Assembly: GCA_023251555.1 (NCBI GenBank)
Contig: JAHEYN010000015.1
Span: 18,288-74,750 of the forward strand
From: Bacteroidota bacterium
Lineage (GTDB): Bacteria; Bacteroidota; Bacteroidia; AKYH767-A; JAHEYN01
DNA length: 56,463 bases
Reading direction: 5' to 3'
In this document: positions 1,455-40,674 of the stretch, in pieces
Layout of the letters: each line of letters starts with the position of its first letter
Position numbering within the stretch: position 1 is the stretch's first letter
The notes under the pieces: model-generated
Databases searched by the model: none
Seen by the model: the letters and a program-made list of their open reading frames with translations, nothing else
What the model was told of the DNA's origin: nothing
Position numbers and translations under genes: made by a program

Positions 1455-1475
1455 AAGAGATGGTTTTTATGTCTT

Positions 1476-2213: not shown

Positions 2214-2263
2214 CTGGAACGGAGTTTAATATTGACTGAAAGGGGGCTGTGGCAGAAGGCCTG

Positions 2264-2271
2264 CAAAGTTA
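2264..2271 (-). promoter_or_regulatory. Bacteroidota-type -7 box upstream of etfB
   Basis: On the minus strand this reads TAACTTTG, a full match to TAnnTTTG. It lies 50 bp upstream of the etfB start, giving a predicted leader of about 45 nt. The -33 element is weak: GTTG instead of TTTG, at a spacing of 23. Confidence 0.5.
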
Positions 2272-2344
2272 TTGAAATACCTCAGAATAAAAAACAACGG
2301 TTTTGCGGGGAAGCAGCAAAGAAACCGGAAATACAAGTCACCTT

Positions 2345-3016
2345 TTATATCATTCCCGGGCGCCTTTCTTTTGTGCGCCGGAGAGATTCTTCGTGCCTCC
2401 ATTTTTCAATTTCGGGGGTATTGCCTGAAAGCAGTATTTCAGGAACTTGCAGTCCTCTGAAGTCTGCCGGCCGCGTATAAACCGGGGGGGCTATCAGTCC
2501 GTCCTGGAAAGAGTCCGAGAGTGCGGATGTTTCATCCGAAATAGCCCCGGGCAGGAGCCTGATGATGGAATCGCAAAGGACGGCTGCCGGGAGTTCTCCC
2601 CCGGAGAGCACATAGTTTCCGATGGAAATTTCCCGGGTAACGAAATGTGTGCGCACCCTTTCGTCTATTCCTTTATAATGTCCGCAAAGGAGTATAATAT
2701 TATGCAGCATGGAAAGTTTGTTGGAGATCTGCTGGTCCAGCAGCTCCCCGTCAGGGCTGAGATAGATCACTTCATCATAATTCCTTTCAGAGCGGAGTTT
2801 ATCGATGCACCGTGCCACGGGTTCGATCATGAGTACCATGCCTGCGCCGCCGCCGTAGGGAGCATCATCCACGCTGCGGTGCTTATCAGTGGAATAATCA
2901 CGCAGGTTAATGACATTAATCTCTGCGACACCTTTTTGTATTGCACGTTTTACAATGGAATGTCCCAGCGGACTTTCAAGCAGCTGCGGGAGTGCGGATA
3001 TAATGTCAATGCGCAT
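2345..3016 (-). CDS. trmD: tRNA (guanine-37-N1)-methyltransferase
   Basis: 223 residues, the usual size for TrmD. It methylates G37 of tRNAs that read CNN codons, using S-adenosylmethionine. Family motifs are present in order: MRIDIISALPQLLESPLGHS at the N-terminus, DDAPYGGGAGMVL (50-62), CGHYKGIDERV (111-121) and SIGNYVLSGGELPA (131-144). The last two form the trefoil-knot cofactor pocket. The gene stands between etfB and the divergent biotin operon. Its 3' neighbour etfB appears to have its own promoter box. Confidence 0.97.
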   Translation of the reverse strand: MRIDIISALPQLLESPLGHSIVKRAIQKGVAEINVINLRDYSTDKHRSVDDAPYGGGAGMVLMIEPVARCIDKLRSERNYDEVIYLSPDGELLDQQISNKLSMLHNIILLCGHYKGIDERVRTHFVTREISIGNYVLSGGELPAAVLCDSIIRLLPGAISDETSALSDSFQDGLIAPPVYTRPADFRGLQVPEILLSGNTPEIEKWRHEESLRRTKERRPGMI

Positions 3017-3054
3017 TTTACATTTTTTCAGAATGCAAATATCAAACTTTGGAT

Positions 3055-3062
3055 TATCTTTG
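3055..3062 (+). promoter_or_regulatory. Promoter -7 box of the biotin operon
   Basis: TATCTTTG matches TAnnTTTG exactly and ends 24 bp before the bioB ATG. No good TTTG box is seen 19-21 bp upstream. The same 70-bp intergenic space must also hold the divergent trmD promoter. No biotin operator was recognised. Confidence 0.5.
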
Positions 3063-3086
3063 TCAAAAGCAAAAATCTGACATAGA

Positions 3087-4070
3087 ATGATACGTCATAA
3101 CTGGACAAAAGAGGAAATCCTTGACATCTACAATACACCCCTCCTTGACCTTGTTTACCGCGCTGCTTCCGTACACAGGGAGCACAATACATACGGAGAA
3201 GTTCAGGTAAGCAGCCTGCTTTCCATAAAAACAGGGGGATGTTCCGAAGACTGTTCATATTGCCCGCAGTCGGCTAAATACCATACGGATATTGATATTC
3301 ATGCCCTTGTTTCCACGGAAGAAGTGGTTACTGCAGCGATGAAAGCGAAAGAAGGGGGGGCTTCCCGCCTGTGCATGGGTGCTGCCTGGAGGGAGGTGCG
3401 GGACAACAGGGACTTTGACCGTATCCTTGAGATGGTAAAAGCTGTTGCAGAGATGGATATGGAGGTGTGCTGCACACTCGGAATGATCAATGAAAGCCAG
3501 GCAAAAAAACTTGCTGATGCCGGGTTGTATGCATACAATCACAACCTTGATTCCTCTGAAGATTTTTATAAAAAAATTATCAGCACAAGAAGTTATGCCG
3601 ATCGCCTTCAAACTCTTGGCCATGTGCGGAAAGCGGGACTTTCTGTTTGCTGCGGCGGTATTATCGGCATGGGCGAGAGTGCGGAAGACCGTGCATCCAT
3701 GCTGCAGGTTTTGTCGGCCATGAATCCTCACCCGGAATCTGTTCCGGTCAATGCCCTGGTACCCGTAAAAGGGACTCCCCTCGAAAGCAACGAAAAGATT
3801 TCCACCTGGGAGATGGTGCGCATGATAGCCACTGTGCGTATTGTCCTTCCCGCTTCTGCCGTCCGCCTTTCGGCAGGGAGAACGGAAATGAGCACCGAAG
3901 CTCAGGCCCTGTGTTTCATGGCGGGCGCAAACTCTGTTTTCGCAGGCGATAAACTGCTTACTACTCCCAATCCTGCTTTTAACGAAGACCTTGAGATGTT
4001 CACGGTACTCGGGCTGAAGCCTATGCAGGCATACAGCAAAGCGAAAAAAGAATCAGGCATTCCTGCCTGA
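3087..4070 (+). CDS. bioB: Biotin synthase
   Basis: 327 residues. Radical-SAM enzyme that inserts sulfur into dethiobiotin, the last step of biotin synthesis. The CxxxCxxC cluster motif is C52, C56 and C59 within GCSEDCSYCPQ, and these cysteines bind the 4Fe-4S cluster. The downstream RLSAGRTEMS segment carries the arginine typical of the 2Fe-2S site. The N-terminus MIRHNWTKEEILDIYNTPL fits full-length family members, so the ATG at 3087 is preferred. It is the first gene of bioB-F-D-A. Confidence 0.98.
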   Translation: MIRHNWTKEEILDIYNTPLLDLVYRAASVHREHNTYGEVQVSSLLSIKTGGCSEDCSYCPQSAKYHTDIDIHALVSTEEVVTAAMKAKEGGASRLCMGAAWREVRDNRDFDRILEMVKAVAEMDMEVCCTLGMINESQAKKLADAGLYAYNHNLDSSEDFYKKIISTRSYADRLQTLGHVRKAGLSVCCGGIIGMGESAEDRASMLQVLSAMNPHPESVPVNALVPVKGTPLESNEKISTWEMVRMIATVRIVLPASAVRLSAGRTEMSTEAQALCFMAGANSVFAGDKLLTTPNPAFNEDLEMFTVLGLKPMQAYSKAKKESGIPA

Positions 4071-21230: not shown

Positions 21231-23366
21231 ATGAACATGAAAATGTTATCCTCTTATGAGTTTTCCCGCAGATTGCCGGGAATGTTCTCATTGTTTACAC
21301 ACGTGGCAATTCTTGCATTGCTTCTGTCGCTGAATACTTCTTTAATGGCCAGTGTAACGGTTGCGCCTGCTTCCGTCAGCGGTATTAATGTGCAGGGCGG
21401 TGTTTCATGTTACACTTCCCTAGGAAGTATATCGCTTACCGAAATAGTAAATAAGGATGATATTCCCCAGACCGGCGGAACCCTTATCCTGAACTGTCCC
21501 GCCGGTTTCCAGTTTAATACTACCGGTATCTTTGGTTCTGTTACCACGAGCATGGATATCACCGGATTCTCCTTTGCATCAGCTACATCTTCTGCCATTA
21601 CTTTTAATGTAACGGGAAACGGAGGCGGAACCACTTTGGGAGATGTGCTTTCCATTACCGGTGTCCTGGTTCAGGCAACATCCACCAGTGCCAGCGGTAA
21701 TATTACTTTCTCCGGCACATGTGTGCTGGTGGGGGCCAACCCGATTTCGCTTACTGCCGTGAGCTATGCCGGCTGCCCTGTTATTACCACCATAGCCGGT
21801 TCGACGGCAAGTCCTCCCGTTTCAGGCTATACGGGCGACAACGGCCCTGCATCTTCGGCTCTTCTCTTTGGCCCATGGGGCGTGGCACTTGATGGTTCCG
21901 GAAATAACCTCTACATAGCAGATACCTATAACCATGCTATTCGTAAAATCTCTGGCGGAACAATCACTACTATAGCCGGGAATGGTACCGGTGGATTCGC
22001 GGGAGATAACGGACCAGCTTCTGCTTCACAGGTGAGGCAGCCTGAGGCAATTACCCTTGATGCAGCGGGCAACATTTATATCAGCGACACATGGAATCAT
22101 TGTATCCGTAAGATAAGCACCGGGGGAACCATCACCACTATTGCAGGTACAGGAGGCACCTTCGGATCTTCGGGAGATAACGGCCCTGCGACCGCAGCGC
22201 TCCTTAACCAGCCTTCCGGCATTACCCTTGATGCCGCCGGAAATATTTATTTCGCTGATTATGGAAATAACCGTGTCCGTAAGATAAATACATCAGGAAC
22301 CATTACTACTATAGCGGGAACCACGATGGGCTATTCCGGTGATGCCGGTGCCGCTACCCTTGCCCAGCTTCATTTTCCTTTTGGAGTGGCAGTGGATGCT
22401 GCAGGAAATGTTTATATAGGCGACCAGGGCAATAACTGTGTAAGAAGAGTTAATACTTCAGGTATTATATCAACTATTGCAGGAAACGGGACTGCAGGTT
22501 TTGCAGGCGATGGCGGTCCTGCAGGTGCTTCACAGCTTAACTATACCTGCGGTCTCTTTCTCGATGCTTCAGGCAACCTCTTTATCGCAGATAACGGCAA
22601 CCACCGCATCAGGGAAATTAATGCGACTACCGGGAATATCAATACCGTTGGGGGAAACGGAAATCCAGGCTGGACAGGCGACGGAGGTAACTCCCTTCAG
22701 GGAAGATTATACTGGCCTATTACCATGGTGGTGGATGCCTCGTGTAATGTCTATATCGCAGATTATAACAATAACCGTATCCGCGAAATTACAGGCCTTT
22801 CCGTCATGCCCTCCGCAGGATGCGCAGTCTTGCCCGTGAACCTCGTCTCTTTTACCGGGAGTTTCGGCTATGACAATTTTGCTCACCTCAGCTGGTCCGT
22901 TGCAAGTGAACAGAATAATGATTATTTCGCTGTTGAAAGAAGTTCAGACGGAGACTCCTATGCTGAAATTGGTATCGTAAAAGGCGCAGGTAACAGCAGT
23001 ACTGCAAAGAATTATGAATTCACAGACTATGCCGCCGGAATTCTTTCCCCGACTATATATTACCGCCTCAGGCAGGTGGATTACGATGGGCATTTCACTT
23101 ATCCCGGCACTGTTGCCCTTCACAGGCCTGCTGCACAGCAGGATTTACTCATCGGCCCCAACCCGGTGAAGGATGCCCTGTTTATACGTATCCCCGAATC
23201 AACAGCAGGCTGCGGATTTACCGTCTCTGACCTTTTGGGAAAAGAAGTAATGAGCATAGCCATACCTGCCGGCAGCAATGAATTCCGGGCAGATACCCGC
23301 ACACTCCAGCCTGGTGTTTATTTTCTGAAATCAGCAGCAGCCCGGGCTAAGTTTGTGAAGGAATAA
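21231..23366 (+). CDS. Secreted NHL six-bladed propeller protein with T9SS sorting domain
   Basis: 711 residues. An N-terminal export signal (LFTHVAILALLLSLNTSLMA, about 22-41) is followed by ~150 residues rich in short beta strands (VTVAPASVSGINVQGGVSCY). Six NHL repeats follow from about 185 to 520, each with a TIAG, GDNGPA, LDAAGNIYIAD and NxRIRKI pattern, so one six-bladed propeller is likely. After a fibronectin-like linker (LVSFTGSF to YYRLRQVDYDGHF) comes a T9SS type A domain (LLIGPNPVKDALF to GVYFLKS). It is bracketed with the RCC1 protein by inverted repeats. Binding partner unknown. Confidence 0.92.
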   Translation: MNMKMLSSYEFSRRLPGMFSLFTHVAILALLLSLNTSLMASVTVAPASVSGINVQGGVSCYTSLGSISLTEIVNKDDIPQTGGTLILNCPAGFQFNTTGIFGSVTTSMDITGFSFASATSSAITFNVTGNGGGTTLGDVLSITGVLVQATSTSASGNITFSGTCVLVGANPISLTAVSYAGCPVITTIAGSTASPPVSGYTGDNGPASSALLFGPWGVALDGSGNNLYIADTYNHAIRKISGGTITTIAGNGTGGFAGDNGPASASQVRQPEAITLDAAGNIYISDTWNHCIRKISTGGTITTIAGTGGTFGSSGDNGPATAALLNQPSGITLDAAGNIYFADYGNNRVRKINTSGTITTIAGTTMGYSGDAGAATLAQLHFPFGVAVDAAGNVYIGDQGNNCVRRVNTSGIISTIAGNGTAGFAGDGGPAGASQLNYTCGLFLDASGNLFIADNGNHRIREINATTGNINTVGGNGNPGWTGDGGNSLQGRLYWPITMVVDASCNVYIADYNNNRIREITGLSVMPSAGCAVLPVNLVSFTGSFGYDNFAHLSWSVASEQNNDYFAVERSSDGDSYAEIGIVKGAGNSSTAKNYEFTDYAAGILSPTIYYRLRQVDYDGHFTYPGTVALHRPAAQQDLLIGPNPVKDALFIRIPESTAGCGFTVSDLLGKEVMSIAIPAGSNEFRADTRTLQPGVYFLKSAAARAKFVKE

Positions 23367-27241: not shown

Positions 27242-28513
27242 TCACACATAAAGCGGGAACTGTTCCATGAAGCTGTTTACCTTTTTTCGTACGCTGCTTA
27301 TAACTCCGGGGTTTTCGGGGGAGTGGAGCACTTCGTGAATAAATTCAACGATGGGAGGGATATCTTTTTCTTTCATCCCCCTGCTGGTGATGGCCGCTGT
27401 TCCCAGGCGCAGCCCCGAAGTAACCATGGGTGACTTGTCGTCGAAGGGTACCATGTTTTTGTTTGCAGTGATATCGGCCTTCACCAGTGCATTTTCTGCA
27501 AGCTTCCCTGAGATATTTTTATTCCTGAGATCAATGAGCATGCAGTGGTTGTCAGTACCCCCGGAGATAATCTGGTATTGCTTCCCGGTGAAACATTCTG
27601 CCATTGCCCTGGCGTTGTTCATGACCTGCCTGCAATATTCTTTGTATTCCTCCGTAAGCGCTTCCCCGAAAGCCACGGCTTTGGCGGCAATGACATGCTC
27701 AAGCGGCCCGCCCTGAGTCCCCGGGAATACAGCAGAGTCCAGCAAAGATGACATCATGCGCACTTCGCCTTTGGGGGTGGTGATTCCCATGGGATTGGGG
27801 GAATCTTTTCCCATCATGATTAAGCCGCCTCTCGGCCCGCGCAGTGTTTTATGAGTAGTGGTGGTAACCACGTGGCAGTGGGGAAGAGGGTTGTTGAGCA
27901 GCCCGCATGCAATCAGCCCTGCCGGGTGCGAAATATCTGCCATCAGAAGGGCCCCGATCTTGTCAGCCGTTTTGCGCATTCTTTCATAATCCCAGTCCCT
28001 TGAATAGGAAGATGCTCCTGCAATGATGAGCCTGGGCTTCTCCTGTAATGCAATCTCCTCCAGACTGTCCTGGTTTACCCTCCCGCTTTCCCTGTCCACC
28101 CCGTAAAAACAGGCTTTGTATAATTTTCCCGAAAAGTTGACCGGGGATCCGTGTGTGAGGTGCCCTCCGTGCGAAAGGTCAAAGCCGAGTATTTTATCTC
28201 CGGGCTTAAGCACTGCAAGCATGACTGCGGCGTTGGCCTGGGCGCCCGAATGAGGTTGTACGTTTACCCATTCGGCCCCGAAAAGTTTTTTGACACGATC
28301 TATGGCAAGCTGCTCTACCTTGTCAACTACTTCGCATCCTCCGTAATACCTTTTTCCGGGGAGTCCCTCAGCGTATTTGTTGGTGAGGCAGGAGCCCATG
28401 GCCTCCATTACCTGCCTGCTTACGAAGTTTTCGGAGGCAATGAGTTCAATGCCATGCCTCTGGCGCAGTAACTCTTCATTAATAAGGTTGAAAATGGTTT
28501 CGTCGCGTTTCAT
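27242..28513 (-). CDS. glyA: Serine hydroxymethyltransferase
   Basis: 423 residues. PLP enzyme that converts serine and tetrahydrofolate to glycine and methylene-tetrahydrofolate. Seen: [19 protein letters not shown] (23-41), [28 protein letters not shown] and the PLP lysine K222 in [14 protein letters not shown]. It is 25 bp downstream of a sugar nucleotidyltransferase gene on the same strand, so the two may share a transcript. Confidence 0.98.
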
Positions 28514-28538: not shown

Positions 28539-29546
28539 TCAGCCGAAATCGATTTCGGTGTTATCGCCTATATTCAGGCTCTGGTTGGGAACTTTAAGAG
28601 TGGCATCGCTGCCTATCACCGAGTGGTGAAGCACAGCGTTCCTTAATTCGGAGAATGACCCGATGATGGAGTCTTTCAGGATGGAGTCGGAGATGACAGT
28701 GTTTTCACCTATGGATACGTTAGGGCCGATGATGGAGTTGGAAATTTTACAGTTGTCCGACACGGATACCGGCGGGATGAGAATTGAGCTTTCGAAATGC
28801 CCGGGAGGCGTTTTTCCGGCAGCAAGCTTTTTCAGCAGTACCGCATTGGTTTCAAGCAGGCTGGCCTTACTTCCGCAATCATACCAGTTCTCTACAGGGA
28901 AGGTGGTTATCCTGGCCCCCTTTTCAATCATTTTCATGAGGCCGTCTGTGAGATGGAATTCATTTTGGGTTTTAATGTTGTTATTTATGTTTTGTTCGAT
29001 AGATTCAATTAACAGTCCCGATTCTTTTATCTTATATATCCCTACCAGCGCCAGGTTGGAGGTGGGGATATTCGGCTTTTCAATGACCCGTTTGATAAAC
29101 CCATTCTCATCAAGCTCAGCCACTCCGAAACTCCTGGGGTCTTCAACCCTTTTTACCCCGAGGGACGAGTAAGGAAGGTTTATAATGGACCTGAGGTCTA
29201 CATCAAAGATGGTATCTCCGAGTACGATCAGTATTTCATTACCCGGCCTGATTTCGTTCCTTGCCAGCCATACAGCATGGCCTATACCCTCCCTGGGTTC
29301 CTGTACGATAAAGGTGGATTGAATAAGCGGGTATTTGTTTTTTATAAAAGATTCAATCTTGTCCCCAAGGTATCCTACTATAAAAACAAATTCGTTAAAT
29401 CCGGTCTCGGTGAGGCTGTCAATGATATGAGAAAGGATGGGTTTGCCTGCCACGGGAACAAGCGCTTTAGGCTGTGTATGCGTGTGGGGCCTTAAGCGGC
29501 TTCCTATGCCCGCTACGGGAATGATGACTTTCGTGCCCTGATTCAT
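28539..29546 (-). CDS. Sugar-1-phosphate nucleotidyltransferase with left-handed beta-helix tail
   Basis: 335 residues. The N-terminal NTP-transferase domain (1-235) has the [20 protein letters not shown] signature, [20 protein letters not shown] and VEKP-like VIEKPN. The C-terminal part (about 250-325) has hexapeptide-type repeats ([15 protein letters not shown]). Close in layout to long glucose-1-phosphate thymidylyl-/uridylyltransferases. The sugar and nucleotide cannot be read directly. It may feed the surface-glycan operons to its right. Confidence 0.88.
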
Positions 29547-29574: not shown

Positions 29575-30030
29575 TTATTTCTTTATTTGCCTGGCCAGGG
29601 CGAAGGCCGGAAGCATGAGAAGAACGAGAACGGGCGACTGCACAAATCCCATGATATCCCTCGCGACCCTGTAGCCGGGGATGTCGTTCCCCGAAAGATG
29701 TCCGGCGTATAATGAGAGGAGGGCAAGCAGCATAAGAAATAGGTAAACGGCAATAGTGATTTTTATGAATATCTTCTCCCTGTAAAGCAGGTATAGTATG
29801 AGGCATCCGTCAAGGAGGTACAGGTCGCTGAATAACTCTGTCAGTATCCACTTGAGGATGTAGTATATGTTATCGAACCTGTACAATCCGATGGCCGTTG
29901 TTCCCTTTGGCGTTCCGATAATTCTGTTTATGTTTTCAAAAACATAGTCTCTCAGGAATCCTACAGAGAAAAGGACAATGAATAACAGCAGCAGGACAAC
30001 ATGTTTTTTTTTATTTTTTCCGGATTCCAT
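29575..30030 (-). CDS. Exosortase-associated membrane protein (probable)
   Basis: 151 residues from the ATG at 30030, 5 bp after the exosortase stop. An earlier in-frame ATG at 30069 would overlap the exosortase by 34 bp. It has about four membrane segments (near 10-27, 72-86, 89-113 and 131-145 of the short form) and no known catalytic motif. Position and topology match the small membrane companions that accompany Bacteroidota exosortases. Its role is unknown. Confidence 0.75.
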   Translation of the reverse strand: MESGKNKKKHVVLLLLFIVLFSVGFLRDYVFENINRIIGTPKGTTAIGLYRFDNIYYILKWILTELFSDLYLLDGCLILYLLYREKIFIKITIAVYLFLMLLALLSLYAGHLSGNDIPGYRVARDIMGFVQSPVLVLLMLPAFALARQIKK

Positions 30031-30035
30031 CTGAT

Positions 30036-30554
30036 TTATTTTCCCCGTCTGCTGAATTTGTTTACCCATAACATCCAGAGTGAAAAAATACAGATGTAAG
30101 CTATTATGGTGAATGTGTAAGTGTGGTTAAAGTTCATCCATCCGGGCCGGTATAGCAGCACAATGCACAGGCCTGCTATTCTCACAATATTTATGATGTG
30201 GATGATGATTATCCCCGAAGGGATGAAAACCAGTTTGTATTTTATCTTTCCGGGATAGGCAATGATAAACCCGCTGAACAGGGCAAAAAGGTTAAGCCCG
30301 TTGCAGGGATCTCCTATCCAGAGCCCGGTGGTGGGAACTATTCCTGTGAGACGGTTTCTTGAATAAACCGTAAAGCCCAGGAATGAAAGAATTTTTTTGC
30401 TCAGGTTAATGGCATTGTAGGTGACAAAGTCATCCAGGTGCTTTGCGGGATGAAGCAGGAGGTCATAAACAATGTACCAGGAAACATAAAGCCCGCATGC
30501 AATAGCGAGGAACCGTACTAAAGGTCTGTTCTCTTTTAAATAGTGGATGAGCAA
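30036..30554 (-). CDS. Exosortase/archaeosortase family protein (small Bacteroidota type)
   Basis: 172 residues from a TTG at 30554; no in-frame ATG exists between the preceding stop and this point. It has about five membrane segments. The family catalytic triad is visible: C84 in GDPCNGLNL, R125 in NIVRIAGL and H144 in FNHTYTF, each at a membrane edge. Exosortases are thought to cleave and possibly transfer proteins carrying a C-terminal sorting signal. The likely substrate is the small protein encoded 30 bp upstream. The size and gene order fit the XrtX/XrtF-like Bacteroidota forms; the exact subtype was not determined. Confidence 0.88.
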   Translation of the reverse strand: MLIHYLKENRPLVRFLAIACGLYVSWYIVYDLLLHPAKHLDDFVTYNAINLSKKILSFLGFTVYSRNRLTGIVPTTGLWIGDPCNGLNLFALFSGFIIAYPGKIKYKLVFIPSGIIIIHIINIVRIAGLCIVLLYRPGWMNFNHTYTFTIIAYICIFSLWMLWVNKFSRRGK

Positions 30555-30584
30555 AGCTGGCCCGCGGAATATACGGAAGTCCTG

Positions 30585-30830
30585 TTACTTCCTTTTTTTC
30601 ATGGAGTCGTAAATCTTTTTTGAACCGTAGGCTGCTCCTGCAGCAAGGAGAATGCTTATGCCACCGTCAATGGGGATTACGGGAGGACCAGGCATGGGGG
30701 GAGGAGCAAGGCATACCTGCGGAAAAACGAACAGGAGCAGGAGAACAGGCAGAAAGAGAAATATACCGCTGCAAATCCTTAGAACGCGTCTCAACAATTT
30801 TTTTTGTTTTTTAACTGTGTCTTTTCCCAT
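30585..30830 (-). CDS. Small exported protein with a PID-type C-terminal sorting signal
   Basis: 81 residues. A basic start (MGKDTVKKQKKLLRRVLR) and a hydrophobic stretch (about 21-42) form a signal peptide. A very short proline-rich middle (APPPMPGPPV) runs straight into PIDGGISILLAAGAAYGSKK and a short basic end (KKRK). This tripartite end (Pro-Ile-Asp-Gly-Gly motif, hydrophobic helix, basic cluster) matches what I know as the PID-CTERM signal. The mature part is nearly nothing but the signal. It lies directly upstream of the exosortase. Confidence 0.8.
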   Translation of the reverse strand: MGKDTVKKQKKLLRRVLRICSGIFLFLPVLLLLFVFPQVCLAPPPMPGPPVIPIDGGISILLAAGAAYGSKKIYDSMKKRK

Positions 30831-30855
30831 ATTCTATATCGCTTCACGCTTTTTG

Positions 30856-30863
30856 CAAAAGTA
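30856..30863 (-). promoter_or_regulatory. -7 box of the exosortase mini-operon
   Basis: Minus strand TACTTTTG (TAnnTTTG), 26 bp upstream of the small sorted protein. A TCTG near -33 (30882-30885, spacing 18) is a partial match to TTTG. It makes 30830-29575 an independent three-gene unit. Confidence 0.5.
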
Positions 30864-30902: not shown

Positions 30903-33900
30903 TTATTTCTTCAATTCTACTTTCTTGTTTAATGCCCTGTTCCCGGATTGAACATTTACGAGGTAAATTCCTCCGGGTGCAAAAGACAGATCGATGGATA
31001 AAAGATTTTTATCGGCAGAGATGTTTTTTACCTCCGATACCTTTTTGCCGAGAACATCATAAATGGACACCGAAGAGTTAACAGCCTCAGAATAGTTAAA
31101 ATTGATATTGATATGGCCATCCAGGCTATTAATGCTGATTTCATCGGAAGGAATAGGTTCTGCTTCTGCAGGTATTGTTTGCTGGGGGCCTATATGAAGC
31201 ACGAACCGTGTTTTCCTTTCTTTGTCTGACGCGGCATCAAAGGTGTAACTGTTGCGGGTCATGTCTGTGATCTTGCCGTTATCCAGATCTTCGAGTGTTA
31301 CAGAAGTCCCGGAAGGGAAACTGGCGAGGTTTTCTGCCGAGATGGTATAGCTTCCTGTTGCGCCAACATGCAGGGCAACGGGTATATCATAGCCTCTGTT
31401 GAGGGCAGGAAAAGTGTTCACGGTAAGGGGCAGTTTATCTGTGCTGAGCGTGGAAAGATTGGGTATAAGGGAAGTCGGGCTGAACAGCCTGTGTGAGTCG
31501 TATTCAGGCTCATAAGAGGTTTTCGCATCTTTTGTAAATCTTACGAGCGCAGCATCGGAAAAATGTTCAGGGCTGTTATTATCCACTACCCTCAGTCTCA
31601 TCAGGTCAGGCAGGTTTGCAATAGTACCATTACCGTTTTTATAGAAGGAGGGATCCTGGCTGCTCTTTACACTTTCAGGACAGGTAAGTGAGGGAGAAGA
31701 AGCTGTGGTTTGGATCCAGAAGGCCTGCATAGAGGCAATATACCTCGTTCCGTTTCCTCCAACCCCTGTCTGGTAAGACCTGTAGTCGCTGATGGTCTCA
31801 TCCCATATATAGAAGGTGGTCGCGACATTGGTTTTGGTAGTCCATGCCGCATCCCAGTCAATGGCAGAAGGGTAGGGATTGCTTACCAGATTCCAGCCGT
31901 CATTCACAGGGTCTCCGGGCCCGGTAGGGTTATAGGTTACATTAAGATTTGCCGCTCCTGATTTGGGTGTGCCTGTGATATCCACGGTGGCGGGCAGGTT
32001 GCTCTGGAAGAAATAAAGGTCATAACCTCTTCCGTTCACCATCAGGTCTGCAGTTCCTCCTGCAGGCACAACATAGGTGTTGGCCCAGTCGCCGGTGGTT
32101 GATTCATCATAGTAGTAAAGGCTCGGAAGCTGTGTCGGGTGCCTGTCCACGAGGCCCTGAAGTGTTACATCATCATCCAGCTGGAGTATGGTGGCATCGG
32201 TCATGGGAGATCCGATCATGTGATAGCAGGCGCTTCCTGCCACATAACGCTGCATCACTACTGTTCCGCTGATAGTTCCTCCCCCGGTATTGTCGGCAAT
32301 GCGTGCGGTTCCGTTTCCGTCAGAGATAAGTGTGAATGTCTGCCCGCTTACACTGAAAGTGCCTGCAGATACAGTAAGTGTTCCTGTAATGCTGGTGGCT
32401 CCGGCAAGTGATTTGGTCCCTGAGCCTGAGATGGTGAGGTTGGTATAGGTGGATGAGGGGACTTTGATAGTTTGTGCCCCGGCCCTGTTGTAATTTACCG
32501 TGTTTCCGCTTGCGCTGGCGGCAAGCGTGGTAAGGGTTACCGAAGATGCTCCTATGTTCAGCGTCTTGTTTGCCGCATTGGTAAGAGATCCGGCGCCGGC
32601 AAGAGTGGTTGTGATTGTACAGGTTCCGTTGTTGGTGTATGATCCTGAAACGGAAGCACTGGTAATTGTGACTGTATTAGCCCCGCTAAGTGTTTTGCCT
32701 GCCCCTGCAAGGGTATAAGTTCCGCTGTTTGAAGTGAAAGTGCCGTCGTTCTGAATATTTCCGTTTACGGTAAAGTCCTCTGCAGCTGTGCAGTTCCAGT
32801 TCCCTCCCGGGTTTACGGTAATATCCCCGAAAGTTTTTGTCCCTGCAGTTGAACTGATGGTGAAGGTGCCTGTAATGCTGGAAGTGCCTGTAACAGTCAT
32901 ATTATAGCCTCCGTTGCTTGCAGTGCCTGAAGCAACCGTGAAGTTATTGTTAACGGTGACAGCCCCCGTGGAAACAGCTCCTCCGGTGCTGGTTACATTG
33001 AGGTCGTAATAGGTGGTTTGTACCATGAGTTGGCTTGCAGATCCGTTGTAGTTAACTGTATTGCCTGCGGCTGTGGCGGTGAGGGTCGTAATGGTAGAAG
33101 ATCCGCCGATATTGAGTGTTTTTCCCCCTGCATTGGTCAGGGAGCCTGCGCCTGTAAGGGCGGTTGTTACAGATAATGTTCCGTTATTGGTGTAAGAACC
33201 TGAAACCGCTGCATTGGCAATAGACAGGGGGTTGTTGCCGCTGAGTGATTTCGCTGCCCCTGCAAGCGTATAGGTTCCTGCCCCTGAAGTAAAAGTCCCA
33301 TCATTCTGGATGCTCCCGTTGATTGTGAAATTTTCTGTTACTGTCGAATTCCATGTACCCCCTGAATTAACGGTGATATTGTTAAATACAGGCACTCCTG
33401 CATTGCTGGTAATGTTAAGAGTTCCGGTAACCGATGTGTTCCCGCTTACTGTGAAATTGTAAGCGCCTATGGCCAGTGTTCCCTGGGCTACATCAAGATT
33501 GTTGTTTACAGTGATAGCGCCATTGACAGAGGCAGTGCCTGCACTTTTGGTGACAGACAGATTATAATAGGTTGTGGTGCGGAGAGTCTGTGCTCCTGCT
33601 CCGTTGTAGTTTACTGTATTGGTGGCAGCGGTGGCAACAAGGGTTGTAATCAGTGCTGTGCCTCCGAGGTTGAGTGTCCCGGTAGCCCCCTGGGTAAGGG
33701 AACCTGCTCCGGAAAGTGCTGTCCCGACAGTAAGCACTCCATTATTGGTATAGCTGCCTGCACCTGAGATAGTTACGTTGGAGATGGCTGTTGAGGATGC
33801 GCCGCTGATCGTCTTTCCTGCGCCTGAAAGTGTATAAATTCCACTGTTACCGGTGAAAGTCCCGTCATTGGCTATGTTACCGGTAACGGAGAAGTCCTCC

Positions 33901-35333
33901 GCAACAGTGCAATTCCACGTTCCACCGGGATTTACAGTAATATCCTTGAATGTTTTTGTTCCGCCTGTGCTCGTGATGTTAAGCGTGCCGGATATGGTGG
34001 TGGCAGCACTTGCAGTAAAGGTAACGTTCCCCAGGGTGTTTGCTCCGCTGGATACATTGAATGTACCGGGAATGGTGATAATACCAGTGGCAGCTCCATC
34101 AAGCGAACCCCCTGTCATTGTCAGGTTCCCGGTAACAGTAAAAGTTTCAGCAGCGCTGTTGCTCCAGGATCCCCCGGAGTTGATATTTACATTTCCGAAA
34201 GTCTTTACCCCGGAAATACTTGTAAAGGTAACTGTCCCGGTTATATCGGTAGTTCCGGTTACGGTGATGGTTTCCTGTCCGATGGTGTTTGCCCCGCTGA
34301 GGATATTGAAGTTGCCAAGCACGTTGAAAGTGCCTGTGGATGTTCCGGTAATGGAACCGCCGGACATATTCAGATTCCCGTTGATGGTGGCGGTATTGGG
34401 AGTTCCGGAACTGGTGGCATCAATTGTACCTCCGGAGTTCACATTAACATCCTGGAACGACCATGTCCCTGAGTTTCCCGATAGAGTCAGTATACCGGAA
34501 ATGGAGGTGGTGCCGCTTACAGTTACATTATAGCTTCCTATGTTTGCGGTTCCTGTGGAAACGGTGAAATTATTATTAACGGTGATAGAACTTGTAAAAA
34601 CAGTACCGCCGGTGCTTGCTACGTTCAGGTCATAATAAGTTGTTGACTTCATGGTCTGCGTGGCAGAACCGCTGTAGTTTACCGTGTTTCCGGCGGCAGT
34701 GGCCGTTAGCGTTGACAGAGATACCGCTGAGGATTTGATGTTGAGTGTTCCCGTGCCGGAATTTGTCAGGCTGCCGGCACCTGCAAAGGTTGATACGACG
34801 GTAAATGTCCCGTTGTTTGTATAAGATCCCGTGATAGTTACCTGTGTGATGGAAACGGGATTTGCCCCGCTGATGGTCTTTGCCGCACCGGCAAGTGTGT
34901 AAAGGCCGGATCCGGAAGTAAACGTGGCATCGTTCTGGATGCTGCCGTTTACGGTCATAGCAACGGCAGTTGTAACATTCCAGTTTCCCCCGGCATCTAC
35001 GGTGATGTTATTAAAGATTTTTGTTCCGGTATTGCTTGTGATATTCACTGTTCCGTCAATCGTGAGTGTTCCGTTGGAAGTGAAGGCAACGGCACCTATG
35101 GTTAAAATCCCTGTTGCATTTACGTTTACGTTATTAATAGTAGTATTCCCGTTAAGCGTAACAGTATGGCCTGCAGCAACAACAACATCCTCCCCGGCAG
35201 CAGGAATACAATTACAATCCCAGGTGGAAGCCACGCTCCAGAATCCTGTCTGAACAGAGGTGCGGGTTTGGGCATTTGCTGCAAGTGTAATGATACATAA
35301 TGCAATTGCCGGCAGAGTGGTAATCTTTTTCAT
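30903..35333 (-). CDS. Giant secreted repeat protein with T9SS sorting domain
   Basis: 1476 residues from the ATG at 35333, where a good signal peptide begins (MKKITTLPAIALCIITLAANA, then Q). Residues about 40-1050 are beta-helix-like repeats rich in Thr, Ser, Gly and Asn. Four long units share the pattern IQNDGTFTSGSGTYTLAGAA, then SYTNNGT, GAGSLTN, TVNYNG, with shorter units between. A jelly-roll-like part (GWNLVSNPYPSAIDWDAAWT, IWDETISDYRSYQTG) follows, then a T9SS type A domain (VSIYDVLGKKVSEV to GGIYLVNVQSGNR, ending KKVELKK). It is probably a surface adhesin or matrix protein (inference). Confidence 0.9.
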   Translation of the reverse strand: MKKITTLPAIALCIITLAANAQTRTSVQTGFWSVASTWDCNCIPAAGEDVVVAAGHTVTLNGNTTINNVNVNATGILTIGAVAFTSNGTLTIDGTVNITSNTGTKIFNNITVDAGGNWNVTTAVAMTVNGSIQNDATFTSGSGLYTLAGAAKTISGANPVSITQVTITGSYTNNGTFTVVSTFAGAGSLTNSGTGTLNIKSSAVSLSTLTATAAGNTVNYSGSATQTMKSTTYYDLNVASTGGTVFTSSITVNNNFTVSTGTANIGSYNVTVSGTTSISGILTLSGNSGTWSFQDVNVNSGGTIDATSSGTPNTATINGNLNMSGGSITGTSTGTFNVLGNFNILSGANTIGQETITVTGTTDITGTVTFTSISGVKTFGNVNINSGGSWSNSAAETFTVTGNLTMTGGSLDGAATGIITIPGTFNVSSGANTLGNVTFTASAATTISGTLNITSTGGTKTFKDITVNPGGTWNCTVAEDFSVTGNIANDGTFTGNSGIYTLSGAGKTISGASSTAISNVTISGAGSYTNNGVLTVGTALSGAGSLTQGATGTLNLGGTALITTLVATAATNTVNYNGAGAQTLRTTTYYNLSVTKSAGTASVNGAITVNNNLDVAQGTLAIGAYNFTVSGNTSVTGTLNITSNAGVPVFNNITVNSGGTWNSTVTENFTINGSIQNDGTFTSGAGTYTLAGAAKSLSGNNPLSIANAAVSGSYTNNGTLSVTTALTGAGSLTNAGGKTLNIGGSSTITTLTATAAGNTVNYNGSASQLMVQTTYYDLNVTSTGGAVSTGAVTVNNNFTVASGTASNGGYNMTVTGTSSITGTFTISSTAGTKTFGDITVNPGGNWNCTAAEDFTVNGNIQNDGTFTSNSGTYTLAGAGKTLSGANTVTITSASVSGSYTNNGTCTITTTLAGAGSLTNAANKTLNIGASSVTLTTLAASASGNTVNYNRAGAQTIKVPSSTYTNLTISGSGTKSLAGATSITGTLTVSAGTFSVSGQTFTLISDGNGTARIADNTGGGTISGTVVMQRYVAGSACYHMIGSPMTDATILQLDDDVTLQGLVDRHPTQLPSLYYYDESTTGDWANTYVVPAGGTADLMVNGRGYDLYFFQSNLPATVDITGTPKSGAANLNVTYNPTGPGDPVNDGWNLVSNPYPSAIDWDAAWTTKTNVATTFYIWDETISDYRSYQTGVGGNGTRYIASMQAFWIQTTASSPSLTCPESVKSSQDPSFYKNGNGTIANLPDLMRLRVVDNNSPEHFSDAALVRFTKDAKTSYEPEYDSHRLFSPTSLIPNLSTLSTDKLPLTVNTFPALNRGYDIPVALHVGATGSYTISAENLASFPSGTSVTLEDLDNGKITDMTRNSYTFDAASDKERKTRFVLHIGPQQTIPAEAEPIPSDEISINSLDGHININFNYSEAVNSSVSIYDVLGKKVSEVKNISADKNLLSIDLSFAPGGIYLVNVQSGNRALNKKVELKK
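32683..34960 (-). repeat. Long internal repeats in the giant T9SS gene
   Basis: The segment beginning CCGCTnAnnGnnTT (plus strand) recurs at 32683, 33238, 33802 and 34867. Spacings are 555, 564 and 1065 bp, all multiples of three, so units of about 185 residues are repeated in frame, with one interval holding extra shorter units. Confidence 0.75.
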
Positions 35334-35495
35334 AAAAATATTGTTATTTGAGGGTTTCATTTGTCTTGACACACGATAATTTATACTTTATAACACATGG
35401 TAATGTTACAACTGTAATACAGCAATGAACACAAGGCCATTCATGCATGGCAGACTGAATACAAGTACTGATGTGCAGTATCACGCAAAAATAAG

Positions 35496-35544: not shown

Positions 35545-37914
35545 ATGATGGAATCAACTACTAAGAAGAACACCGGTATTATTGACAAGTCTGACATCCG
35601 AAGCATTGTCAGCGTGTTTCGTAAAAACTGGTATGTCTTTGTTGTTTTCCTCATACCATCATACTTCATTGCGTACATCGTCATTCATAAGTCAACATAT
35701 ATATACCAGGCAAAATCAGCTGTCCTGGTGAAAACAAGTTCCCAGGGTTATGACCTCCAGGATGCATTTTTAAAGGGGCTCGGCATTAATCCCTCTTTTG
35801 AAAACATCGCCAACGAAATGCGTGTTATTAATTCTTCGCCCCTTATCGAAGAAACTATTTCAAGGCTTAACCTCGACATATCTTATTTTATTTCCGGGAG
35901 AATCAAGGTTACCGAGGTATATGAATCCATGCCCTTTAAGGTGGAAGCTGCAGTATATAATTATGCTGTTTACACTTATATGTTCAAAGTGCATATCATC
36001 AATGCCGAACGCTTTGATCTGATGTACGAGGTGGGAGATCAGAAATACAGCAAGGAGTACCGCTGGGGCGAACCCATCGTGAATAAAGATTTCACTTTTA
36101 TAATCAACAAAACCGAAGTGTTTCACCTTTTAAACCTTACAAGCCTTAAAGACATTAATTACCTGTTCAGGGTGAACAGCAAGAAGGATCTGGTGAAGAA
36201 ATACAAGAACTCCATCAAGGTGGAAGACTATCAGTGGACAGCGATACTTGAGATATCCGCCACCAATGAAATCCCCGAAAGGGCGGTCAGGTTCCTTGAT
36301 ACGCTCATGGCTGTGTATGTCGAAAAATCCATTGAGAACCAGAGAAGTGTGAATGAAAAAACGGTTGTGTTTATTGAAACACAGCTTAACGAAGTTGTGA
36401 ATGTGCTGAATGATATAGAAACCGACCTTGAGAAATACAAGGAGGAAAAGATCACCTTTAACGTAGATGAAGAATACAGCACTTATTTCAGGAGAGTGAT
36501 TGAGTGGGATACCGAGAAGCGAAAACTTGAGTACCGGATAAAGGCCTATGACCTGCTATACAATTACCTTACTGAAAATACCGACAATACTACCCTTTCG
36601 CCTTCTCTGGTGGAGCGTAACGAAGATCCTTACCTTAATGAAAACCTTGAAAAACTTTATGCCCTGAATATCCAGAAGAAGAATGCCAGATTCAACTATA
36701 CCGATGATAATCCAGTTTTTAAAGATTTTGACAACCAGATAACCAAACTTAAAGGAGTAGTTATATCATATCTGGTAAGCTCAAAAAAGAGTCTGCAGGC
36801 AGATATCAGGCACCTTGAGGAGCAGATTGATGAAAACCAGGTATATATTAAAAAGATACCCCGTACAGAGCGGGATATTATCAACATCAAGCGGAAACTC
36901 GAGGTAAATGAAAAAATCTATCTCTATCTCCTTGAGAAAAAGAATGAAACGATCATCGCAAAGGCGGGTATTGTGCCTGACAAAAAAATCCTTGAGCCTG
37001 CGCATTCAATGGGGATCATAAGCCCTAACAGCCAGAAGATTCTCATCAATTATCTTGGATTCGGAATTATCCTGGCGCTTGTGGTGGTGTTTCTCCGCAA
37101 GATGTTCTTTGATACTATAGAAGGAGTTGAAGACCTGAAAAGATTATCCACCGTTCCCATTGTTGGTATTGTGGGCCGGCTGAAAAAGAAAGATTTCAGT
37201 TACCGCGTTGTGGAAACGTCTCCCAAATCTGCTTTTACGGAATCCTTCAGGCTGATTCGTACCAACATGGAGTATATGGCTCCCGGCATTAAGCATAAGG
37301 TGGTACTTGTAACCTCGTTCGTGGGAGGCGAAGGAAAAACTTTTACCGCGATTAACCTCTCAACCATCCTCGCCAAAGCGGGAAAAAAGACGATCCTGCT
37401 TGAACTTGACCTGCACAAGCCAAGAATCCAGAAGGTGATGACTCTTAACAATGAAACAGGAATCAGCTCTATCCTGATTGAGAAAGCAAATTTTATGGAT
37501 GCCATCAGGCATACTGATATTGAGGGGCTGGATGTGATCCTGTCAGGTCCTCTTCCTCCCAATGCTTCCGAACTCATACTTACTCCCCAGCTGGGAATGT
37601 TATTTGAAAATCTCCGGAAAATATACGACTATGTTATCATCGATACACCTCCTATAGGTATCATCAGCGATGCGCTGGTAATGATGCAGCATGCCGATAT
37701 TAATCTTTATGTCCTCAGGGCGGGGAAAGCGAAGGCGGAGTTTATAGAAAATGGCCATCATATTAAAGAGAAGCATAATCCAAAGAACTTCGCTTTCCTC
37801 CTGAACGGGGTTAACTTTGAACGGGGCGGATATTATGGCTATGGCTACGGCTACGGTTATGGCTACGGCTACGGTTATGGCGGCTATGGCTATGGTTATA
37901 CAACCGAAAAATAA
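35545..37914 (+). CDS. Wzc-type polysaccharide co-polymerase / tyrosine autokinase
   Basis: 789 residues; ATGs at 35545 and 35548 are both possible. Wzz domain with TM1 (about 28-48) and TM2 (about 500-520) flank a long periplasmic coiled-coil region. The cytoplasmic BY-kinase domain has Walker A GGEGKT (594-599), Walker A' LLELDLHKP and Walker B VIIDTPP (about 697-703). The end is a tail of 12 tyrosines in Tyr-Gly repeats (last ~28 residues), the usual autophosphorylation site. It controls chain length and export of surface polysaccharide. The sugar genes follow 9 bp later. A CpsB/YwqE-type phosphatase at 51466-52215 may reverse the phosphorylation. Confidence 0.94.
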   Translation: MMESTTKKNTGIIDKSDIRSIVSVFRKNWYVFVVFLIPSYFIAYIVIHKSTYIYQAKSAVLVKTSSQGYDLQDAFLKGLGINPSFENIANEMRVINSSPLIEETISRLNLDISYFISGRIKVTEVYESMPFKVEAAVYNYAVYTYMFKVHIINAERFDLMYEVGDQKYSKEYRWGEPIVNKDFTFIINKTEVFHLLNLTSLKDINYLFRVNSKKDLVKKYKNSIKVEDYQWTAILEISATNEIPERAVRFLDTLMAVYVEKSIENQRSVNEKTVVFIETQLNEVVNVLNDIETDLEKYKEEKITFNVDEEYSTYFRRVIEWDTEKRKLEYRIKAYDLLYNYLTENTDNTTLSPSLVERNEDPYLNENLEKLYALNIQKKNARFNYTDDNPVFKDFDNQITKLKGVVISYLVSSKKSLQADIRHLEEQIDENQVYIKKIPRTERDIINIKRKLEVNEKIYLYLLEKKNETIIAKAGIVPDKKILEPAHSMGIISPNSQKILINYLGFGIILALVVVFLRKMFFDTIEGVEDLKRLSTVPIVGIVGRLKKKDFSYRVVETSPKSAFTESFRLIRTNMEYMAPGIKHKVVLVTSFVGGEGKTFTAINLSTILAKAGKKTILLELDLHKPRIQKVMTLNNETGISSILIEKANFMDAIRHTDIEGLDVILSGPLPPNASELILTPQLGMLFENLRKIYDYVIIDTPPIGIISDALVMMQHADINLYVLRAGKAKAEFIENGHHIKEKHNPKNFAFLLNGVNFERGGYYGYGYGYGYGYGYGYGGYGYGYTTEK
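37831..37899 (+). repeat. Hexanucleotide TAYGGY repeat encoding the Tyr-Gly tail
   Basis: About eleven imperfect copies of TAYGGY (TATGGC, TACGGC, TACGGT, TATGGC...). As the unit is 6 bp, slippage would add or remove Tyr-Gly pairs without a frameshift. Confidence 0.85.
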
Positions 37915-37923
37915 TATGGTGAT

Positions 37924-38943
37924 ATGCGGAAAACCTTGATAATAGCCGAGGCCGGAGTAAACCATAATGGAAATACTAAAATTGCAAAGAAACTGATTGA
38001 TGTGGCTGCGGCTGCAGGTGCTGACTTTGTAAAGTTCCAGACATTTAAAGCCGATAAACTTGTGACCGGGAGTGCCGGGATGGCTGCGTACCAGTCGCGG
38101 AACACAGGCGGGAAAGACCAGACTCAACTTACCATGCTTCGCCGCCTTGAGCTCAGTTTTGAAGACCACGTCCTGCTCAGGGAGCATTGTGAAAAGAAAA
38201 AAATAGGATTTCTCTCCACTGCGTTTGATGAAGAAAGTATAGAATGGCTTTGCAGGCTGGATGTGCCTTTCTTTAAGATACCCTCCGGGGAAATTACCAA
38301 TCTTCCTTACCTTAGAAAGGCAGGCAGCCTGAAAAAGAAGGTCATTCTTTCCACGGGTATGGCAGAAATGCAGGAAGTAGAAGCCGCTCTTGAGATACTG
38401 CTGCGGAGCGGTACGCGAAAAAAAGATATAATCCTCATGCACTGCAATACGGAATACCCAACTCCCATGGAGGATGTGAACCTCCTGGCAATGTGCACTA
38501 TGGCGGCGCATTTCCGCATGCCGGCCGGCTATTCGGATCATACTCCCGGCATCGAGATTCCCATCGCTGCGGTGGCTCTTGGTGCCGTGGTGATTGAGAA
38601 ACACTTTACGCTCAGCAGGGAGATGCAGGGTCCCGACCACAAGGCCTCTCTTCAGCCTTCCGAATTAAAACAAATGGTCATTGCCATAAGAAATATTGAG
38701 AAAGCCCTTGGAGACGGTCAAAAGCGCCCTTCCCCTTCAGAGAGCAGAAACAGGACTGCCGCCAGGCGCAGTATCCATATTTCCCGCTCCCTTTCCCGCG
38801 GCAGCCGGCTCCGTGCAGAGGACCTTGTAATGAAACGCCCGGGGGACGGTATTTCCCCGATGCGGATGAATGAGGTTACCGGGAAAAAAATAAAAAAAGA
38901 CATGCCTCCTGATTACAAACTCCGGTTTTCAGATTTAGCATGA
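37924..38943 (+). CDS. neuB: N-acetylneuraminate / nonulosonate synthase (NeuB family)
   Basis: 339 residues. Condenses an N-acyl-mannosamine-type sugar with phosphoenolpyruvate. Seen: IIAEAGVNHNGNTKIAKKL (5-23), ADFVKFQTFKADKL, FLSTAFDEESIEWL, FFKIPSGEI, HCNTEYPTPMEDVNLLAM and GYSDHTPGIE. The C-terminal SAF/antifreeze-like domain (about 280-339) includes RRSIHISRSL. It cannot be told from sequence whether the product is sialic, legionaminic or another nonulosonic acid. The start of neuC overlaps its stop by 4 bp. Confidence 0.93.
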   Translation: MRKTLIIAEAGVNHNGNTKIAKKLIDVAAAAGADFVKFQTFKADKLVTGSAGMAAYQSRNTGGKDQTQLTMLRRLELSFEDHVLLREHCEKKKIGFLSTAFDEESIEWLCRLDVPFFKIPSGEITNLPYLRKAGSLKKKVILSTGMAEMQEVEAALEILLRSGTRKKDIILMHCNTEYPTPMEDVNLLAMCTMAAHFRMPAGYSDHTPGIEIPIAAVALGAVVIEKHFTLSREMQGPDHKASLQPSELKQMVIAIRNIEKALGDGQKRPSPSESRNRTAARRSIHISRSLSRGSRLRAEDLVMKRPGDGISPMRMNEVTGKKIKKDMPPDYKLRFSDLA

Positions 38944-40061
38944 AAGTCCTTGTACTTACCAGCTCCAGGGCGGATTACGGTATCTACCATCCGCTTCTTA
39001 AAAAGATGAAGGCAGATCCTTTCTTTGAGCTTGACATTGCGGCATTTGGCACACATCTTTCCCCCGTTCATGGCTATACTTTAAAGCAAATCCTGGCTGA
39101 CGGCTTTGGGGTGAAATACCGTATCAGAACTCATCCCGCCGGCGATACACCGGGGCATATCGCACTGTCGATGGCAGGAACCATGAAGAGTTTTACATCC
39201 CTCTGGAAGAAGATCGCCGGGAACATTGACCTGGTATTTTGCCTCGGGGATCGCTATGAAATGTTTTCGGCGGTGGCAGCCTCGGTGCCGTTTAATATTC
39301 CGGTAGCTCATGTTCACGGCGGGGAAACAACACTCGGATCCGTTGATAATGTTTTCAGACATTCTCTTTCACTCATGGCATCCATGCATTTTACCGCCAC
39401 AAAGGAATATGCGCGCAAAGTGGCACTGCTGAGAGGAAGCGGAAAAAATATCTTTTCCGTGGGGGCGCTTGGCCTCGATAATATTGGGCTTATGAAACTC
39501 TTGTCTGACCGGGAGTTTGAAAAAGAATATGGAATAGATTCCCGTTCCCCGTTTATTCTTGTAACATTTCATCCCGAAACTGTTTCCCCTGAAAAAAATA
39601 AAAAACATGTGCAGGAACTGCTTGCGGCTTTGAACATCCTCAAGAGAAAATACCGGCTGGTTATTACGATGCCTAATGCGGATACCAGCAGCAACACGAT
39701 TCGCAATGCTCTCATCAGATTTGGAAAGGCAAATAAAAAAGACAATGTATTGTTAGTTGAGAATTTCGGTACGAAGGGATATTTCAGCTGTATGAATCTC
39801 TGTAGTTTTGTTCTGGGGAACAGCTCCAGCGGGATCATAGAGGCTGCTTCTTTCGGAAAATACGTTATTGATGCCGGCGATCGCCAGAAAGGCCGGCTGG
39901 CAGGGAAAAATGTTATTCATGTGCCTGTCGCCTGCAGGCAAATACTTGATGCGGTTACCCGTATTGAGAAACTGCCTTCTTTCAGGGGAAGGAATATATA
40001 CGGGGACGGGCTGGCATCGGAAAAAATTACACAGGTTATAAAACGAACTTTCAATGGGTAA
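38940..40061 (+). CDS. neuC: Hydrolysing UDP-sugar 2-epimerase (NeuC family)
   Basis: 373 residues. Family motifs: VLTSSRADYGIYHPLLKKM (4-22), FGTHLS, DLVFCLGDRYEMFSA, VAHVHGGETTLGSVDNVFRH, TFHPETVSPEKN and LGNSSSGIIEAASFG. It releases the 2-epimerised sugar (ManNAc or a diacylated relative) that feeds NeuB. If the substrate is GDP-linked, as in legionaminic acid routes, the CBS nucleotidyltransferase downstream would supply it (inference). Confidence 0.93.
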   Translation: MKVLVLTSSRADYGIYHPLLKKMKADPFFELDIAAFGTHLSPVHGYTLKQILADGFGVKYRIRTHPAGDTPGHIALSMAGTMKSFTSLWKKIAGNIDLVFCLGDRYEMFSAVAASVPFNIPVAHVHGGETTLGSVDNVFRHSLSLMASMHFTATKEYARKVALLRGSGKNIFSVGALGLDNIGLMKLLSDREFEKEYGIDSRSPFILVTFHPETVSPEKNKKHVQELLAALNILKRKYRLVITMPNADTSSNTIRNALIRFGKANKKDNVLLVENFGTKGYFSCMNLCSFVLGNSSSGIIEAASFGKYVIDAGDRQKGRLAGKNVIHVPVACRQILDAVTRIEKLPSFRGRNIYGDGLASEKITQVIKRTFNG

Positions 40062-40674
40062 GGATGTGGTATTAATTGGGTACTCCGGACACGCTTTCGT
40101 GGTATATGAAATTTTTCTCTCCCGGGAACGCAACATAGCCGGGTATTGTGAGCCTGCCCCCAAAAAACTCAATCCCTTTAAACTCCCGTACCTCGGAAAT
40201 GAAATTGAATCCTCTGTTATTGGCCGCCTGAAATCATTTGATTACTTTGTTGCAGTGGGTGACATCGCTGCGAGGAAAAAAATCCATGAGCAGCTTGCCG
40301 GCAAGATCCAACCTCCTGTTAATGCCATCCATCCGCGGTCTGTATTGTCAGGAGGTGTGGAGATTGGGAATGGCGTTATGGTTGCTCCGGGCGCAGTTAT
40401 CAATGCCCTGAGCAGGATAGGAGATGGGGTGATTTGCAATTCTGCTTCCGTGATCGAACATGAATGTGAAATAGGAGCCTTCGCCCATATTGCACCTGGT
40501 GCTGTCCTTTGCGGTAATGTGAAGGTCGGCGGGCAGAGTTTTATCGGTGCCGGTGCGGTGGTAAAGGAAGGGGTGGAAATAGGGAAAGGCGTAACGGTGG
40601 GCGCCGGAACAGTGGTTATAAAAAATATCCCCGACGGAGCTGTGGTGGTCGGGAACCCTCAAAGGTTTATTTGA
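40054..40674 (+). CDS. NeuD/PglD-family sugar O- or N-acetyltransferase
   Basis: 206 residues. An N-terminal Rossmann-like part (VVLIGYSGHAFVVYEIFLS, then DYFVAVGD) and a left-handed beta-helix of hexapeptide repeats (VEIGNGVMVAPGAVINALSR, GAFAHIAPGAVLCGNVKVG) ending in IPDGAVVVGNPQRFI. Acetyl-CoA-dependent; the likely catalytic histidine is in VIEHECEIG. Overlaps neuC by 8 bp. Could acetylate the amino sugar before NeuC/NeuB or the finished acid. Confidence 0.9.
   Translation: MGKDVVLIGYSGHAFVVYEIFLSRERNIAGYCEPAPKKLNPFKLPYLGNEIESSVIGRLKSFDYFVAVGDIAARKKIHEQLAGKIQPPVNAIHPRSVLSGGVEIGNGVMVAPGAVINALSRIGDGVICNSASVIEHECEIGAFAHIAPGAVLCGNVKVGGQSFIGAGAVVKEGVEIGKGVTVGAGTVVIKNIPDGAVVVGNPQRFI

Follow-up and report, generated by a model that had tools for sequence, protein, structure and literature searches.

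In the PEP-CTERM/EpsH (XrtA) system, a membrane exosortase whose invariant residues fit a transpeptidase is paired with a tripartite protein tail and is linked to exopolysaccharide genes (PMC1569441); it sorts many diverse proteins, 65 of them in Verrucomicrobium spinosum (PMC1569441). Archaeosortase A acts on PGF-CTERM proteins, with cleavage near a short motif before the transmembrane helix coupled to lipid anchoring (PMC7157517), and its clients in archaea are large S-layer and surface proteins. MYXO-CTERM has a Cys near the cut site and depends on it for cleavage (PMC11980579). The same source presents MrtJ as a sorting enzyme encoded beside a single target protein, of the JDVT-CTERM type, and as a glutamate-type CPBP intramembrane protease rather than an exosortase (PMC11980579). 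In Flavobacterium johnsoniae, deletion of xrtF (TIGR04128) or of the gene for its associated protein (TIGR04127), the pair Fjoh_1448-1449, led to the loss of zorbs and to strongly reduced biofilm; the substrates of XrtF, predicted to be unlike PEP-CTERM proteins, were left to future work in that 2024 study (PMC10936215).

We analysed a stretch of 56,463 nucleotides from a member of the class Bacteroidia (hereafter, the window), which encodes an exosortase, a small membrane companion and a mini-protein (mini). With PEP-CTERM/EpsH the window shares a membrane exosortase with invariant residues, a tripartite tail and the link to exopolysaccharide genes, but it has one mini instead of many diverse cargo proteins, and the motif is PID, not PEP. 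It has in common with MrtJ the gene pairing of one enzyme with one target; unlike MYXO-CTERM, its mini has no Cys at the corresponding place, and a protein of this size is unlike the large clients of archaeosortase A. The enzyme and the companion are both related to their counterparts in the XrtF pair; PID-CTERM minis co-occur with XrtF too, but their genes seldom lie beside xrtF and most of them have no Cys. Exosortases are commonly regarded as serving many large surface proteins, but over a large part of the class Bacteroidia they seem instead to be tied to one conserved client of peptide size, and the question becomes what the peptide does rather than which proteins the enzyme sorts.

A mini-protein encoded beside exosortase XrtX

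The three-gene set is a system already named in NCBIfam: PID-CTERM (NF046080), exosortase X (XrtX, NF046081) and the XrtX-associated membrane protein (NF046082). The window agrees with this set in gene order and size. Since the mini and XrtX score above their cut-offs, and the companion also matches its family, although below the cut-off, the mini and XrtX are not chance features; the companion is to be regarded as a relative at the expected place and not as a member by the curated rule. The open-access papers searched yielded none mentioning PID-CTERM, none relevant to XrtX and no function for such minimal cargo.

All three genes, the 81-residue frame, the exosortase and the membrane companion, lie, on the minus strand, where the original prediction had put them (Table 1). 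Its numbering of the catalytic residues C84, R125 and H144 is likewise exact, and this triad is invariant in an alignment of 38 XrtX proteins. The enzyme matches the Exosortase_EpsH profile PF09721 with 27.7 bits (cut-off 25.7), and with 82 bits falls below the cut-off of 90 for XrtF (TIGR04128). AlphaFold models of XrtX (mean pLDDT 93.4) and of the companion (five helices, pLDDT 87.9) had no real match in a structure search of the PDB (best E 0.96 and 3.4). All 45 companion homologues compared match the XrtX-associated family. In four loci (L067, L070, L077 and L081) the gene for this protein is still present although it lies approximately 4–8 kb away from xrtX; it can thus persist without being adjacent.

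Table 1. Features of the xrtX locus, in coordinates of the window
Feature	Position	Strand	Evidence
PID-CTERM mini-protein precursor, 81 aa	30585..30830	-	NF046080 45.5 bits, E 4.6e-12, cut-off 26
N-terminal signal-peptide-like segment, residues 1-42	30705..30830	-	sequence; cleavage after A42 predicted
Predicted mature peptide PPPMPGPPVIPID, residues 43-55	30666..30704	-	sequence; region with lowest dN/dS in relatives
PID-CTERM sorting signal, residues 53-75, then KKRK	30606..30674	-	NF046080 alignment
Exosortase XrtX, 172 aa, TTG start, C84/R125/H144	30036..30554	-	NF046081 193.4 bits, cut-off 170
XrtX-associated membrane protein (companion), 164 aa	29575..30069	-	NF046082 54.6 bits, E 1e-14, below cut-off 75
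TACTTTTG box (TAnnTTTG, Bacteroidota -7 type)	30856..30863	-	33 nt 5' of mini ATG
1489-aa repeat-rich protein, T9SS type A sorting domain	30903..35372	-	TIGR04183 32 bits, cut-off 23
Wzc-like polysaccharide co-polymerase/tyrosine autokinase, divergent	35545..37914	+	TIGR01007 157.5 bits, cut-off 108
Sugar-1-phosphate nucleotidyltransferase, 3' of companion	28539..29546	-	PF00483 E 2.4e-30
glyA (serine hydroxymethyltransferase), conserved downstream gene	27242..28513	-	in 30/81 loci

The translated mini bears out the layout proposed earlier: a 42-residue signal-like segment, the ten residues PPPMPGPPVI, PIDGG, a hydrophobic helix and a KKRK end, or MGKDTVKKQKKLLRRVLRICSGIFLFLPVLLLLFVFPQVCLA/PPPMPGPPVI-PIDGG-ISILLAAGAAYGSKKIYDSMKKRK, where the slash marks the predicted cut. 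The N-terminal segment has a hydrophobic stretch and V-C-L-A, with Pro at position +1 of the predicted signal peptidase site, whereas relatives possess clear A-x-A/Q sites. Proline at +1 generally disfavours signal peptidase cleavage, and the N-terminal helix of this particular mini could therefore stay uncleaved. A reading as a lipoprotein, based on the Cys in VCLA, was rejected, as there is no lipobox and the Cys is not conserved.

Pairing and copy number in the class Bacteroidia

The class was sampled evenly with 395 genomes, of which 123 possessed a strong XrtX (E < 1e-39). A PID-CTERM match was found in 111 of these, exactly one in 98 genomes, as against 5 of the 174 genomes without an XrtX-like protein. 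A broader profile, which we built from diverse minis, recovered seven of the 12 missing cases (118/123 in total), and four of the five that were left are assemblies of 65–86% completeness. The genome to which the window belongs (97% complete) encodes one XrtX and one PID-CTERM protein. The original prediction had proposed searching it for further proteins with PIDGG and a helix; the window's mini is the only match over the NF046080 cut-off in the whole genome, and the broader profile detected no second one. Two weak matches (E 0.1–0.2) were discarded, being by eye internal parts of unrelated proteins. XrtX was present in 10 of 42 genomes of the window's own taxonomic order.

The pairing is also physical. 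The original prediction would have fallen had no other species carried the tiny gene beside this exosortase; of the 80 named loci, 76 have it immediately upstream of xrtX and on the same strand, three have it approximately 0.6–2.5 kb away and one has none nearby. For L119, L123 and L129, the mini was located within an xrtX frame that had been drawn too long. Of the 29 loci of the class sample with the best scores (L005–L033), 22 have the mini directly upstream. The new element is this comparative picture, in which minimal cargo is the rule.

Conservation of the mature segment

Across 130 distinct minis the whole precursor has approximately 77 residues and its predicted mature part a median of 20 (10–90% range, 15–27). 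The latter is composed of 33% Pro and 22% Gly and is almost devoid of basic residues. Just before PID, 102 of the 130 have two Cys, mostly as CWPPPC or CGGPFPPC, and the form CWPPPC(I/V) occurs in 52, with a core nearly identical across families.

The window's mini lacks this Cys pair, so a Cys loop is usual but not required. In the XrtX tree the window falls inside Cys-bearing lineages, adjoining locus L063 of the same family (support 99/86); both L063 and G461/L239 have the same mini and gene order as the window. Where the window's mini reads APPPMPGPPVIPIDGG, that of L063 has QPCPPGCPDIVPIDGG. Given this position in the tree and the comparison with L063, the simplest account is a loss of the pair in the lineage leading to the window.

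A codon comparison of 33 independent pairs gave an omega of 0.067 (95% interval, 0.043–0.096) for the mature part, 0.125 (0.097–0.155) for the PID-CTERM tail, against 0.118 in xrtX and 0.37 in the signal peptide; as synonymous sites are near saturation (pS ~0.6) and gapped columns were omitted, only the ranking of these values should be used. The mature part attained the omega of the tail in 0.65% of bootstraps, and no other portion of the precursor is as strongly conserved. Such stronger purifying selection on it than on the tail argues against the precursor being just a tag or a decoy, and the possibility of a decoy consisting of the tail only is disfavoured on the same ground.

The peptide as the probable product

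The reading we prefer, with confidence somewhat above even, is that XrtX acts as a dedicated exosortase for one substrate, and that the short mature part of the adjacent mini would be the real product, conjugated to the cell surface. According to this scheme, the precursor would leave the cytoplasm through Sec and lose its signal peptide, while the PIDGG helix would hold the Pro/Gly-rich peptide of 10–27 residues on the outer side of the inner membrane. XrtX, through C84, R125 and H144 and probably together with the companion, would cut near PID-GG and transfer the C-terminus thus formed to an acceptor. A lipid or a lipid-linked or surface glycan seems the likeliest acceptor, a guess that draws on lipid anchoring in the archaeosortase A system and the exopolysaccharide link of EpsH. 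The conjugate may end in the envelope or surface matrix, working with the neighbouring T9SS repeat protein and a Wzc-dependent polysaccharide. Counting against this reading are the few genomes with 3–5 PID-CTERM proteins, the large protein with a weak PIDG tail in L163 and the Pro at +1 in the window's mini.

The original prediction had offered two options, and the comparative evidence favours the released peptide as the product over a decoy, anchor or regulator. In a reading of the latter kind, the mini would regulate XrtX, mimic a substrate or form part of the assembled enzyme: an uncleaved membrane microprotein of two helices that inhibits, switches on or steadies XrtX, while the true clients would have no recognisable PID tail. 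Strict adjacency, near 1:1 stoichiometry and minimal size speak for such a partner, as does the Pro at +1 in the window; however, the relatives have orthodox signal peptidase sites, constraint is highest in the stretch that separates the two helices, and in some genomes several PID-CTERM minis are scattered at a distance from XrtX. We thus consider a regulatory role unlikely.

It is more doubtful still that PID-CTERM sorting is general, comparable to PEP-CTERM/EpsH, with the mini simply its smallest client and the others missed. The tail has the same tripartite build as that of PEP-CTERM proteins, and a few genomes do carry 2–5 PID-CTERM proteins. Nonetheless, most genomes, that of the window among them, yield one client when searched as a whole, and nearly all clients are encoded in open frames of roughly 60–120 residues.

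A secreted signal or pheromone, merely released by XrtX and acting on other cells, would fit a product of peptide size with a dedicated processing enzyme and export genes nearby. Pheromones usually diversify, though, whereas the core of the mature part hardly varies between families, and no receptor or regulator gene is conspicuous among the recurring neighbourhood clusters; we regard this role as very improbable.

Genomic surroundings

The unit had been described as a stand-alone operon. It is not, because a gene with a T9SS tail sits directly upstream on the same strand, 72 nt away, in an order that is conserved: in 43 loci an upstream gene of the same direction lies within 120 nt of the mini (median 30 nt, with some overlaps of 1–4 nt), and 35 of the 36 such neighbours tested have a T9SS type A sorting domain, some together with G8, PKD or SprB repeats. 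T9SS cargo is common, with at least 150 matches in the window's own genome; even so, it would give only a small fraction of such neighbours by chance. The least probable of the alternatives, that mini and XrtX serve the T9SS by conjugating the peptide to anchor or modify the upstream secreted protein instead of a polysaccharide, draws on these neighbours and overlaps, but in many other loci the upstream gene is on the other strand or further away, and with SprA in 385 of 395 genomes the presence of a T9SS is uninformative. For the latter reason, the T9SS was also discarded as a co-occurrence partner.

Of the promoter proposed for the operon, the -7-type box TACTTTTG was found 33 nt upstream of the mini, but no TTG was seen at the usual distance upstream of it. 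A TAnnTTTG box within 150 nt upstream of the mini is present in 36 of 72 loci, against approximately 5.6 expected, so the mini can have its own promoter. The gene overlaps in other loci suggest co-transcription of the mini with the T9SS gene.

The proposed link to polysaccharide genes holds, with a Wzc-like kinase in 45 of 81 neighbourhoods, divergent in 96% of them. Behind the Wzc-like gene, the window has a polysaccharide cluster with NeuB/NeuC/NeuD-type genes for nonulosonic acid synthesis (37924–40674). The same-family relative L239 has the nucleotidyltransferase in the same order as the window; in that locus a gene for 444 residues (positions 1140–2474, on the other strand) separates xrtX from the companion, and gene order is otherwise that of the window. 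In L238, L241 and L242 further genes follow the companion in the same direction. Elsewhere in the window (21231–23366) is encoded a protein similar to the NHL-repeat PEP-CTERM protein ScyF, at 102 bits far below the cut-off of 350.

Candidate substrates of XrtF

The association was also studied in 60 genomes of one family, probably Flavobacteriaceae, in which the XrtX-like proteins are XrtF. XrtF was detected in 36 genomes and, at E <= 0.1, a PID-CTERM match in 32, with both in 30 (Fisher p 6e-9). Some of the weakest matches in XrtF genomes, such as those in L214 and L216, are by eye not minis, and therefore the strict count is given as well: at E <= 1e-3, 20 of the 36 XrtF genomes have a PID-CTERM match vs 1 of the 24 without XrtF (p 3e-5). 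With the broader profile, three of the six XrtF genomes lacking a match gained a mini, while six genomes without XrtF gave no match to this profile below E 0.01. The minis of XrtF genomes are built alike, with a signal peptide, a Pro-rich stretch, PIDGG, a helix and KK.

PID-CTERM minis are thus natural candidate substrates of XrtF, judging from sequence and co-occurrence; XrtF acquires a concrete candidate substrate class, and the gap becomes testable in a genetically tractable strain. More tentatively, and with less confidence than for XrtX alone, it is conceivable that neither XrtX nor XrtF is a protein sorter, and that both are dedicated peptide-conjugating enzymes, each serving one tiny, ribosomally encoded, often disulfide-looped, Pro-rich peptide per genome. 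Attached covalently through its C-terminus to a lipid or polysaccharide of the cell surface, the peptide would be a building block of the envelope throughout the class, needed for colonising surfaces.

Unusual minis and clients

In the window's own order, several minis (L237–L245) have an even shorter mature part of approximately 10 residues, for example QKSDPNVPID. One genome with several minis encodes a 973-residue protein (L163, positions 1115–4036) with a weak PIDG-type C-terminal tail, which may be a rare large client. In L189 and L193, second exosortases (G442 and G413) adjoin PID-CTERM minis with CxxC...C motifs in the mature part, resembling a small metal-binding ribbon.
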